DNA of 21,025 bases, taken from the IMG/VR virus record IMGVR_UViG_3300031785_000072, positions 1 to 21,025 of that record; one strand, 5' to 3'. This DNA is from a virus. Both the position numbers and the translations under genes were made by a program. Shown here piece after piece: positions 16,705 to 20,301 of this stretch. Position 1 is the first letter of the stretch. Every line of letters starts with the position of its first letter. Under the pieces are notes generated by a model that did no database searches, was not told where the DNA came from, and saw only the letters and a list, made by a program, of their open reading frames with translations.

Positions 16705-17613
16705 TTAAGCACCTGGTGAACCGAATACACATCTTGGATCAGAAAATCCAAATGAATATCTTTCACGAGCTTTAAACCTCATATTGCCAGTTGTGAAGTC
16801 GTCTTCCATTGAAGTAGCAAGAGGTGCTCTTTCAAAATGTATGAAACCTCTTGGTGCATCAGTTTTAATGAAGAACGCATCAGTATCTGTTAAGAAATGG
16901 TTCACTACATAACCTTCTGGTAGCATACCCATGTTCTTAATAGCGTTAACATCATTATCGGAAGTGCTTGGTCTTAGAGTTGACTCTAATAGACGATCAG
17001 CAACAAATTGTAGTTGAGGTGGAATAATAAGTTTCATTCCACGTAGTGCAATGATCATATTTCTCTCATCAACAAATGTTGAGATGTCAATTAAAGCGTT
17101 CTCTAATGAAGTTTCATTTAAATCAGCAGCTGTACTTGGCTCATTTCTAAATGTACCACCTCCACCTAGTGGGTGATCAGTTGCACAAAGCTCCTTACCA
17201 TCACCACCTGTGAATGAACTATCAAACGCATTGTTCAAAGTTGCCGCAGCTTTTACTTGTTTGCTGTGTGCCATAGAACGAGCTAATGCTCTTGTATATC
17301 TTGCACCTAATCTGTCGTACAAGTTATCTTCCATAGCTTCTTGCGTTAAAGCAAACGCTAATGCAATTGTTTCATGCGTATAACGTGCAGTGTAAACTTC
17401 ATTTGCTGTGTCAAAATTAACCCCAGCACCCTCAGCTTTAGTTGGTGCGTTACCAAAACCTGATAACATCACTTCTTCTTCAAATGCTCTGTCAGAAGAT
17501 TCTGTGTCGTAGATTTCTGCGTGTTCTGCATCATATCTATCATACTCCATGCCAAACAATGCGTTTAGACCTGGTTCTAGCTCTTTCGCTAGTTGTGCTC
17601 TACTTATCGCCAT
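16705..17613 (-). CDS. Major capsid protein (Mu gpT-like, HK97 fold)
   Basis: A 302-residue protein with the signature of Mu gpT-type major heads: YDRYDAEHAEIYDTESSDRA (24-43), FEEEVMLSGFGNAP, TKAEGAGVNFDTANEVYTAR (58-77), then LAFALTQEAMEDNLYDRLGA, RYTRALARSMAHSKQVKAAA (104-123), LNNAFDSSFTGGDGKELCAT and DHPLGGGGTFRN (146-157). The C-terminal part has LRGMKLIIPPQLQFVADRLL and FKARERYSFGFSDPRCVFGS. This family builds the icosahedral shell with an HK97 fold; 302 residues is in its usual range. The start has a perfect SD (AGGAGGT, 17625-17619) five bases before ATG, the strongest in the window, fitting high expression. An intrinsic terminator follows the stop. No large N-terminal delta domain is seen, so a separate scaffold is expected, and one lies upstream. 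Confidence 0.93.
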   Translation of the reverse strand: MAISRAQLAKELEPGLNALFGMEYDRYDAEHAEIYDTESSDRAFEEEVMLSGFGNAPTKAEGAGVNFDTANEVYTARYTHETIALAFALTQEAMEDNLYDRLGARYTRALARSMAHSKQVKAAATLNNAFDSSFTGGDGKELCATDHPLGGGGTFRNEPSTAADLNETSLENALIDISTFVDERNMIIALRGMKLIIPPQLQFVADRLLESTLRPSTSDNDVNAIKNMGMLPEGYVVNHFLTDTDAFFIKTDAPRGFIHFERAPLATSMEDDFTTGNMRFKARERYSFGFSDPRCVFGSPGA

Positions 17614-17623
17614 TATCTACCTC

Positions 17624-18208
17624 CTACGCTAAGCCTGCACCTTTTTGACCAAAAATAGAATTTTGGATCACAACGTGCACATTGGTTGCATCTGACGAAA
17701 CATCAGAATTTTCAGGGTCTTGCGAAATGTCAATACATTTTAAAGGTAAACCAGCAGTTGTAGCACCAGTTGCTACGTCTAGCTCAGCACCAGAAATACC
17801 AGTGGTGGTACTACCAGAGCTTGTGTAAACAATATCAAAGTTACCAAATAAATCTGCAACTGGAAAAGCTGCATTGCATTGAATTTCATAGATAACATTT
17901 GGGTCATCTATGATAAAAGCAATAATGTCAGAAGCATTAGTGCTTGCAGGATAGAAATTACTAAATTTCTGCTCCTTAGTTGTTGGGTCAGTATACTGAA
18001 CACCATTGAATACACCTACAATAGGAACTGTACCACCATCAGCGTGTACTTCTACAGTACCACCAGTAACTTGAGCTACCATGTCACCTTGAAAGATTGA
18101 TGTTCCATAATTTGCGGCGATTCTATATCGGCTTTGTCCACCAGTGAAAGGCATACCACCTATTCTACCTACAGGACGCATACCAAAAGCGGCATCTTGA
18201 TTTGCCAT
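17624..18208 (-). CDS. Probable capsid decoration / head stabilisation protein
   Basis: A 194-residue Gly- and Thr-rich beta protein starting MANQDAAFGMRPVGRIGGMP, then FTGGQSRYRIAANYGTSIFQ, GDMVAQVTGGTVEVHADGGT (41-60) and VPIVGVFNGVQYTDPTTKEQ, and ending NVHVVIQNSIFGQKGAGLA. The order (aaFGlrPv...GG.....g...y.ia..y.t.if.GD.V......g.i........ivGVf.Gv.Y.d) matches a head protein found beside gpT-like capsids in many marine phages. It is presumed to decorate or stabilise the shell. It ends 10 bases before the capsid start, and its last codons hold the capsid SD. An SD (AAGGAGAT) precedes its own start. No catalytic residues are visible. Confidence 0.8.
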   Translation of the reverse strand: MANQDAAFGMRPVGRIGGMPFTGGQSRYRIAANYGTSIFQGDMVAQVTGGTVEVHADGGTVPIVGVFNGVQYTDPTTKEQKFSNFYPASTNASDIIAFIIDDPNVIYEIQCNAAFPVADLFGNFDIVYTSSGSTTTGISGAELDVATGATTAGLPLKCIDISQDPENSDVSSDATNVHVVIQNSIFGQKGAGLA

Positions 18209-18223
18209 AATTAGATCTCCTTA

Positions 18224-18694
18224 TTAATCATCATTTAAATTTCGGTTATTCCCAAAGGAAACATTGCTGTTTCTTTGAGGTTTTAATTTTGGCATGACAG
18301 GATTATTCTCTCTCATCCAATCACGATCCACAGCATCCATTTGTGTCTGTGTTTTATCTTCAAAATATTTCTTACGTTGCTCCACAATTTCTTCTGGAAC
18401 TCTCGCAAGTAATAATCCACCAGTGCCTATAACCCCAGCGTTTTTACCTTCGTCAATAACAGGAGCATCAAAATCTGGATAATCTTCTGCCTTAACAAGT
18501 TCATAACCTTCACGTCTTCTTTTGTGAATATTGTTTTTATCGTCATACTCCATGACGGATTCTCTTATCCACCTATGTTTATATCCTATAGGTGCTTCAG
18601 GAGCGTCTAATGCAGACGGTGGCTTCCAATCGTTTCTTCGCTCTGTTTTTTCACGAGATTGCGAATCTCGACTTTTTCTATCAATTTCAGCCAT
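18224..18694 (-). CDS. Conserved head-region protein (156 aa)
   Basis: A 156-residue highly charged protein. The N-terminal 25 residues are basic and polar (MAEIDRKSRDSQSREKTERR). The core (35-130) is a pattern common between scaffold and capsid genes of marine phages: PIGYKHRWIRESVMEYDDKN, NIHKRRREGYELVKAEDYPD, then GGLLLARVPEEIVEQRKKYF (92-111). QTQMDAVDRDWMRENNPVMP (116-135) follows, and near the end comes NVSFG. Its function is unknown to me; the place suggests a head-assembly or packaged component. There is no membrane segment or Cys. The start overlaps the scaffold stop by one base (TAATG), so the two are probably translated as a pair. Confidence 0.8.
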   Translation of the reverse strand: MAEIDRKSRDSQSREKTERRNDWKPPSALDAPEAPIGYKHRWIRESVMEYDDKNNIHKRRREGYELVKAEDYPDFDAPVIDEGKNAGVIGTGGLLLARVPEEIVEQRKKYFEDKTQTQMDAVDRDWMRENNPVMPKLKPQRNSNVSFGNNRNLNDD

Positions 18695-19611
18695 TATGTT
18701 CTCCTTGATTCTATTTTAGCAACTTCCTTTGCATATCTCTCAAGAGGTATGTTCATTTTTTTAGCGAAAGCTACTTGACCCGGTGATAATTCAACCGTCT
18801 TTTTTCGCCCTGATTTTACTGACCGTCCATTGGACGTTGCAGGAGCAACAGCTTGGGCGTTTTGCCGTTTATCCTGAAACTTGTTTGGAAAACTATCTCT
18901 CATACGCTTATCTATTTCAGCGTAATATTCATCAGATGTTGGATCATAACCTTCTGAACCAACTAATTGTTGATGTAATCCTTGAGCTGCACCTGTCATA
19001 ACCATGTCTGATCCAAACCAAGTATTTGATTTCATCCATGTTTGTAATTTAGGATCAAGGTCTTCTACTTTAGGTGCTTGTTGTCTTTGAGATGTTTGTT
19101 CTGGTTGTGGTTGTTGAACCTCTTGTTCTGCTCTGGCTTTTTGTATTCTTAGTCTTTCTTTTTCAATAGCTAATTTTGCCATGACATCTTGAGCTTCTGC
19201 CATCTTTTCAGAATCACCAGCTTCATAAGCTTCTTTAAACAGTTTTTTAGCTTGATCAGTTTGAGTTTCTACACGAGTACCGTATTCAGTAATATAACCT
19301 TTATCTAAATTAGATAGCTTTTGTTTTAACTCTTCGTTTTCTTTTTTCTGCTGTTGTGCAAACTGCATAGCAGCATCAGCTTCTTCTAAAGCTTGTTTTC
19401 TTTTAGCAGTTAACTGATTAATTCGTTTTTTTACATTTTCGCTATAATCTTCTAATTCATCTGACTGTTCTTTTTCTTGAACATTTGTTCGGGTTTCTTC
19501 TTTTTCAGGAACAGTTGGTATTTCAGATGTAGTTGTTTGATTATTTGTTTCTTCAACATCAATAGCGACAACTTCATTTTCTTCTACAGCGTTTTGATTT
19601 TCTACATTCAT
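18694..19611 (-). CDS. Scaffolding-like head assembly protein
   Basis: A 305-residue acidic protein. The first ~55 residues are Glu/Thr/Asn-rich and disordered (MNVENQNAVEENEVVAIDVE). Then a long coiled coil follows (KKRINQLTAKRKQALEEADA, AMQFAQQQKKENEELKQKLS) and helices rich in Glu, Ala and Gln to about residue 175. The C-terminus is a compact basic part, KKTVELSPGQVAFAKKMNIP then LERYAKEVAKI. Acidic coiled-coil proteins with an LtpeQv..Ak.lgi....YAk end sit directly upstream of capsid genes and serve as internal scaffolds. An upstream in-frame TTG at 19623 is rejected, because the ATG at 19611 has GGAG seven bases before it and the TTG itself lies in that SD. No protease motif is seen. Confidence 0.82.
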   Translation of the reverse strand: MNVENQNAVEENEVVAIDVEETNNQTTTSEIPTVPEKEETRTNVQEKEQSDELEDYSENVKKRINQLTAKRKQALEEADAAMQFAQQQKKENEELKQKLSNLDKGYITEYGTRVETQTDQAKKLFKEAYEAGDSEKMAEAQDVMAKLAIEKERLRIQKARAEQEVQQPQPEQTSQRQQAPKVEDLDPKLQTWMKSNTWFGSDMVMTGAAQGLHQQLVGSEGYDPTSDEYYAEIDKRMRDSFPNKFQDKRQNAQAVAPATSNGRSVKSGRKKTVELSPGQVAFAKKMNIPLERYAKEVAKIESRRT

Positions 19612-19628
19612 ATTATTCTCCAATTTCT

Positions 19629-20111
19629 TTATACATAGGAAATATCACTAGGGTCAAGTATTGTTGCGATAATATTGTCATCATTTATCAATCTTACCTC
19701 TAAATTCTCAACTTTAAAGCGATTTCCTGCATATCTTCCCATAAGTATCCAACTTTTTTCAGAACACCAAGCACCTGTTGGGAATTTCCCAGTATCAGAG
19801 TAGGCATCCGGCCCAAGTTTTACGACATAACCAGCGACAGTCGCAAAGCTTTCACGATCTCGTGTCGCATCAGGTATGAACACACCTCCCTTTGTTTGTG
19901 ACTTCATATAGTAAGGTATAACAAGAACTCTATATCCTACTGGTTGAGGAAGTCTTTCCAAAGCAGAAGGTTCTAGTTTGGAAGGGTCTTTAGAATTTGG
20001 ATTATCTTCTAATTTAGGAAAACCTTTTTTAACTGCATCAGGTATTTCCATACTTGCTTCTTTTTTACGTGCATTAGCAAATCTCTCTGGCACGAATAGT
20101 TTTTTAGCCAT
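19629..20111 (-). CDS. groES: Viral GroES/Cpn10 co-chaperonin
   Basis: A 160-residue protein whose residues ~53-157 form a Cpn10 domain: PQPVGYRVLVIPYYMKSQ (55-72), then GGVFIPDATRDRES (75-88). The second segment is the mobile loop, in which V77-F78-I79 stands at the place of the GroES IVL tripeptide that docks on GroEL. ATVAGYVVKLGPDAYSDTGK (90-109) corresponds to the GroES barrel strand and the G.G..l..G turn. WILMGRYAGNRFKVENLEVR fits the conserved f..y.G..vk.d..ey, and IIATILDPSDI (147-157) fits the final ILAIVE-type strand. About 50 N-terminal residues (basic and Pro/Glu-rich) have no match in the 97-residue cellular GroES. It overlaps the upstream gene by eight bases and stands before scaffold, decoration and capsid genes. 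It probably replaces host GroES on host GroEL to fold head proteins, as T4 gp31 does for gp23. Confidence 0.88.
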   Translation of the reverse strand: MAKKLFVPERFANARKKEASMEIPDAVKKGFPKLEDNPNSKDPSKLEPSALERLPQPVGYRVLVIPYYMKSQTKGGVFIPDATRDRESFATVAGYVVKLGPDAYSDTGKFPTGAWCSEKSWILMGRYAGNRFKVENLEVRLINDDNIIATILDPSDISYV

Positions 20112-20301
20112 CTTCTAGCTCTATTCCTTTCATCGCAGCTTTTATTTCTTCTTCAGCGTAAGTCATGCCACGTATTTGACCTACAATGAACCGATAGTCC
20201 TCTATGGATTCTACCGTACCATTAGAGAGTGTAATCATAAAATCTTGTTTACGCTCTCTTATGTTCTTTAACAAATGTTCAGCTAGTTTTATTCCGTCCA
20301 C
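20104..20301 (-). CDS. Small conserved phage protein (65 aa), GTG start
   Basis: A 65-residue soluble protein, largely helical: KLAEHLLKNIRERKQDFMIT, then SNGTVESIEDYRFIVGQIRG (26-45), and MTYAEEEIKAAMKGIELEDG. The pattern (LA..L...i..r......l..Gtv.s.e.Yr.i.GqirGl......i) recurs in small proteins near portal and head genes of several marine phages, and the family has no known function as far as I know. The best start is GTG at 20301, which gives a 23-base overlap with the upstream gene. The first internal ATG would remove the conserved helix. No metal site or membrane segment is seen. It is followed by the co-chaperonin gene with an eight-base overlap. Confidence 0.75.
   Translation of the reverse strand: MDGIKLAEHLLKNIRERKQDFMITLSNGTVESIEDYRFIVGQIRGMTYAEEEIKAAMKGIELEDG

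Follow-up and report, generated by a model that had tools for sequence, protein, structure and literature searches.

The window analysed here (21,025 nucleotides, positions 1 to 21,025 of IMG/VR virus record IMGVR_UViG_3300031785_000072) encodes a GroES-type co-chaperonin that carries a long N-terminal tail with a conserved peptide at its tip. We propose that this protein of a marine phage acts as a T4 gp31-like lid for the GroEL of the host and helps the folding of the head module, its tail providing tethers that present a docking peptide; we give this reading a probability of a little under four in five. The co-chaperonin gene itself is largely ordinary, encoding a protein of a familiar type where such genes usually lie.

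A Cpn10 gene ahead of the head genes

The genes considered here all lie on the minus strand:

20104..20301 (-): 65-aa gene, phrog_32603, overlapping the GroES start by 8 bases
19629..20111 (-): co-chaperonin gene of the Cpn10/GroES family, 160 aa (Pfam PF00166, PHROG 3188, AlphaFold2 fold)
18694..19623 (-): scaffold-position gene, phrog_28737, 309 aa, lying between GroES and capsid in those related phages that were inspected
18224..18694 (-): conserved head-module gene, phrog_36003, 156 aa (PHROG match and related phages)
17624..18208 (-): conserved head-module gene, phrog_37556, 194 aa (PHROG match and related phages)
16705..17613 (-): major capsid protein, 302 aa (PF25209 Phage_capsid_4, E 1e-12)

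The initial annotation had placed a Cpn10 gene at these coordinates, which are correct (read from 20111 to 19629), and had suggested a profile search to verify it. Indeed, the protein matches the Pfam profile PF00166 over its full length (residues 56-151, profile positions 3-93 of 93) with E 3.9e-9 and 36.9 bits, the curated cut-off being 21.1 bits. It also matches PHROG 3188, 'co-chaperonin GroES' (E 3.9e-11), and the best solved relative in a PDB sequence search is the GroES structure 3nx6 (E 5.5e-7). The AlphaFold2 model contains the Cpn10 barrel at residues 54-152, preceded by a low-confidence tail (pLDDT of 45, 44, 58 and 65 in successive 10-residue blocks over residues 1-40). The alignment was shallow, and the best of five models reached a mean pLDDT of 73.8 while the other four were poor (42-62), thus it is mainly the sequence profile that carries the fold assignment. 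When the model was compared with known structures by Foldseek and VIA-align 2, GroES chains ranked top (Z 8.2-9.6) and unrelated reductases fell below them (Z 6.5 and below). T4 gp31 was among the structural matches (Z 8.0), which supports the analogy drawn at the outset between the two proteins. We infer that the phage co-chaperonin forms a heptamer and binds GroEL.

The predicted place before the head genes was also confirmed, the order being GroES, scaffold-position gene, 156-aa gene, 194-aa gene and major capsid protein. The capsid protein is 72% identical to that of DSL-LC04, the closest found. The 309-aa protein, a putative scaffold named for its position, has no Pfam match over the cut-off; PDB sequence searches with four head genes besides GroES, this one among them, returned nothing. 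The 309-aa protein ends in V.L.P.QVA.AKK..PLE.YAK, a pattern common to the clades of the window, HTVC027P and DSL-LC04 and a candidate capsid-binding end.

The mobile loop and known co-chaperonins

19827..19895 (-): mobile loop TKGGVFIPDATRDRESFATVAGY, codons 73-95, four residues longer than in host GroES

The loop begins with the expected hydrophobic tripeptide after Gly-Gly (TKGGVFIPD, residues 73-81). The distance from the tripeptide to the next conserved G/A-x-V is 14 residues in all three IMG/VR clades sampled (217 sequences in which the loop pattern matched, not deduplicated) and 10 residues in 41 alphaproteobacterial GroES, one of which met the pattern a residue late; the phage loop is therefore four residues longer. 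In the alignment, all phage relatives have this four-residue insert, and both host GroES sequences lack it. Host GroES of Alphaproteobacteria shares the barrel and the loop pattern GG-xxx-PD-xx-[KR]-[ED]-[KR] with the phage protein, but has no tail, a loop shorter by four residues and III or LII as its tripeptide.

The V-F-I tripeptide of the window had been taken as an altered docking site that might tune the affinity for the host chaperonin. Affinity tuning did not emerge from our analysis, and a host-specific docking change was rejected, because the clade has no fixed tripeptide and includes III as well: the 58 distinct clade sequences have IYI (24), VFI (7), III (6), IFI (5), VYI (5), IYV (4) and others. 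Moreover, the proper comparison is with alphaproteobacterial GroES (III in 37 of 41 sequences, LII in three, ILI in one) and not with the IVL of E. coli, so that V-F-I is no special docking change. An aromatic middle residue is frequent in the window and HTVC027P clades and absent from the DSL-LC04 clade.

Like the window protein, T4 gp31 is a phage co-chaperonin of the Cpn10 fold with a lengthened mobile loop, 22 residues as compared to 16 in GroES (PMC6318259). The two differ in several respects: identity in structural alignments is 10-12%, gp31 is about 111 aa long and has no such tail, and the roof loops missing in gp31 (PMC6318259) contrast with a roof segment (residues 100-120) of host-like length in the alignment of the window protein. 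Since this segment is not shortened, we do not file the protein as a gp31 orthologue.

The GroES proteins of the Pelagibacter phages HTVC023P and HTVC027P (MN698239, MN698241) are among the closest known counterparts. They share the Cpn10 domain, the lengthened mobile loop, the slot before the head genes and an N-terminal tail of about 39-50 residues; however, the tail sequence is unrelated and identity over the matched part is 36-50%. The co-chaperonin of DSL-LC04 (OR003939) resembles the window protein in domain, loop length and gene order, but differs in its tail motif (TALE.KW, DAY) and in having IVL, as in E. coli, for its loop tripeptide.

Capsid pairing, chaperonin partner and lineage

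A relative of the capsid protein was found in 21 phage records, and the 15 records with a GroES relative detectable by tblastn are all among them. Fourteen of the 21 were inspected directly and six further by coordinates. The Cpn10 gene lies about 2 kb from the capsid gene, upstream of the head genes, in 18/18 records with a capsid identity of at least 38%. In the 12 inspected records above this threshold, it has the portal region on one side and the head genes on the other, usually in the order small gene, GroES, three genes, capsid, with extra small genes in some; the distance between the GroES and capsid matches is likewise about 2 kb in MinM2, Pra-JY27, CRP-901, GB2A, RLK and KcrB. The three distant records (26-30% capsid identity) gave no GroES match: in the two that were inspected, nothing fills the slot and the scaffold-position gene comes directly after the portal; MW202604, the third, agrees with MW202601 in length and in match coordinates. 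The hosts written in the records are Alphaproteobacteria, cyanobacteria, Alcaligenes and one stated gammaproteobacterial host. GroES is one of the 13 core genes of HTVC023P-type pelagiphages (PMC9599517), thus its presence in the head-gene slot was already known.

A chaperonin partner is not apparent in these phages. The initial annotation had noted that the window lacks a GroEL gene, and this held: a Pfam scan of its ten main proteins gave no Cpn60 match, the window being a fragment. Cpn60 was also found in 0/15 related phage records, including the whole genomes of HTVC023P, HTVC027P and DSL-LC04, whereas the control search found it in 14/14 cellular genomes. Supplying a lid without GroEL is thus the pattern of the related records, the window itself covering part of a genome. 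The absence of Cpn60 from the related phages implies that the lid must work with host GroEL. As the phage seems to lack a chaperonin of its own, its co-chaperonin would cap the GroEL of the host, and the capped chaperonin would then help to fold head-module proteins, most likely the major capsid protein, as T4 gp31 does. The capsid protein as client is suggested by gene linkage; the order of the genes is by itself no proof of the client's identity, and a capsid protein of 33 kDa does not call for an enlarged cage, points that we count against our own explanation.

The co-chaperonin could instead boost host folding in general during infection, its place in the head operon only setting late expression. 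The loop outside the tripeptide and the insert resembles that of host GroES (PD..[KR][ED][KR]), as would suit a general role, and gp31 is stated to substitute for GroES with every GroEL client of E. coli (PMC6318259). A general booster would not, however, be expected to co-occur strictly with one capsid type across varied phages, in the same slot every time, and we consider this alternative somewhat unlikely.

The SAR11 host assumed at first is not established. The near-complete relative of the window, the 59-kb contig IMGVR_UViG_3300030110_001528 (about 69-82% nucleotide identity in the longer aligned parts), has a TerL 56-62% identical to those of HTVC023P, HTVC027P, 023Pt_psg01 and DSL-LC04, but another replication module: its primase-helicase is closest to that of Wolbachia phage WO, it also carries a Sak4-like protein and a cytosine methylase, and it lacks the PolA present in both HTVC phages. 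A PolA related to that of HTVC023P, which has been used to define the HTVC023P type (PMC9599517), was absent from this contig and from six shorter relatives; the window spans no replication region. The window lineage thus shares its head module with HTVC023P-type phages and apparently not their replication module, and the WO-like primase-helicase together with the missing PolA looks like a module swap. Relatives of the window (L312-L314, contig of L023) have head and terminase genes in common with HTVC023P-type phages; the relative encodes an amidoligase-like protein (L313:7394-8548), and its cytosine methylase is of the C5 type (L313:14391-15545). The only two relatives in bacterial assemblies both occur in Rhodobacteraceae MAGs or bins, on short contigs with phage genes only, thus a host is just hinted at; a search for tRNA genes as host hints found none.

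The N-terminal tail

20082..20105 (-): conserved N-terminal motif KKLFVPER, codons 3-10, the tail tip
20010..20081 (-): variable linker, codons 11-34 (pN/pS 0.62, indels; pLDDT about 44-65)
19950..20009 (-): pre-core segment N..DPS....SALERL, codons 35-54 (pN/pS 0.29)

The long N-terminal extension proved to be real: about 54 residues, predicted to be unstructured, precede the Cpn10 barrel. The end of the 65-aa gene overlaps the GroES start in ATGGCTAA, and close relatives show the same sequence context there. Two observations support the ATG start: the 65-aa gene terminates within it, and codons 4-10 evolve in the manner of coding sequence; overlap, shared context and first codons kept as protein together argue that the extension is no annotation artefact. 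An internal start at M21 was rejected, M21 being present in just 15/58 sequences and the codons upstream of it being constrained. Most related phages have a small gene, of about 65 codons, ahead of GroES; the stop codon of this gene and the GroES start overlap in the window lineage. The description of the extension as basic fits the window protein (net charge +3) and does not extend to the clade, where the charge of 58 sequences runs from -3 to +6 (median 0.5).

The tail falls into zones of different constraint. KKLFVP occurs in 51/58 distinct sequences, and K4, V7 and P8 in 58/58; N39, P43, R53 and L54 of the pre-core segment are also invariant in the 58 sequences. Codons 4-10 (KLFVPER) are as constrained as the barrel, with a pN/pS of 0.134 as compared to 0.167 for codons 96-154. 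These values are simple pairwise sums without correction for saturation or phylogeny, from relatives picked for their similarity to the window protein; what is robust in these data is how the zones differ inside one sequence set. In codons 4-10, pN is low (0.076) and pS is normal (0.565), thus the constraint acts on the peptide.

Docking peptides typically take this form, with a short conserved stretch at the end of an unstructured linker that varies, and the tail tip KKLFVPERFANARK is best read as a candidate for one. The conserved motif lends some support to the functional role first suggested for the extension. On a seven-membered ring, the tails would form seven flexible tethers, each presenting KKLFVP to a phage or host partner. 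Whether the tail has some docking role at all we regard as evenly balanced. A narrower version, in which the seven peptides would capture one particular protein of the phage (capsid, portal or scaffold) and deliver it to the chaperonin of the host, seems quite unlikely; if true, the phage would select what the host machine folds, and each phage clade would have evolved a docking peptide of its own.

Tails of similar length carry other conserved motifs in the HTVC027P clade (K.AL..KY) and in the DSL-LC04 clade (TALE.KW and DAY), and homology between the tails of the three clades was undetected except for a short pre-core DP..L....R segment. In relatives from other phages, the stretch ahead of the Cpn10 domain ranges from about 2 to about 33 residues, and some relatives with the same capsid module are nearly without a tail (proteins of 107-113 aa). 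Since its sequence differs fully between clades and some relatives have almost none of it, the tail is dispensable for the core function. It could be a spacer or solubility tail whose conserved start reflects translation initiation, a real possibility given its predicted disorder and clade-specific sequence, and K-rich starts are common in AT-rich genomes. However, a constraint at the DNA or RNA level would lower pS, and the pS of 0.565 against a pN of 0.076, with V7 and P8 never changing, speaks against initiation as the cause.

The tail tip could also imitate the C-terminus in which the scaffold-position protein ends (AKKMNIPLERYAKE), thereby recruiting the capsid protein to the lid, AKKLFVPERFA resembling AKKMNIPLERYA by eye. 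The local alignment scored no better than shuffled tails (P 0.37), with a clade mean z of 0.26; we rejected such mimicry as highly improbable. Comparison of the tail with 15 other window proteins gave a best P of 0.054, insignificant after 15 tests.

All together, the observation is sound and concerns a protein of a known type, in which the tail is the part of interest; we found no description of a conserved tail in the literature on N-terminal extensions of phage GroES, though an earlier one may exist. Co-chaperonins are already known from phages, and the choice of their clients is generally put down to the size of the cage or to the loop. That GroES is strictly paired with a single capsid type suggests that host GroES by itself does not suffice for this capsid. 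A lid bearing a conserved peptide on a tether would offer a second, testable means of steering the host chaperonin to viral proteins, in phages that occur in many marine samples.
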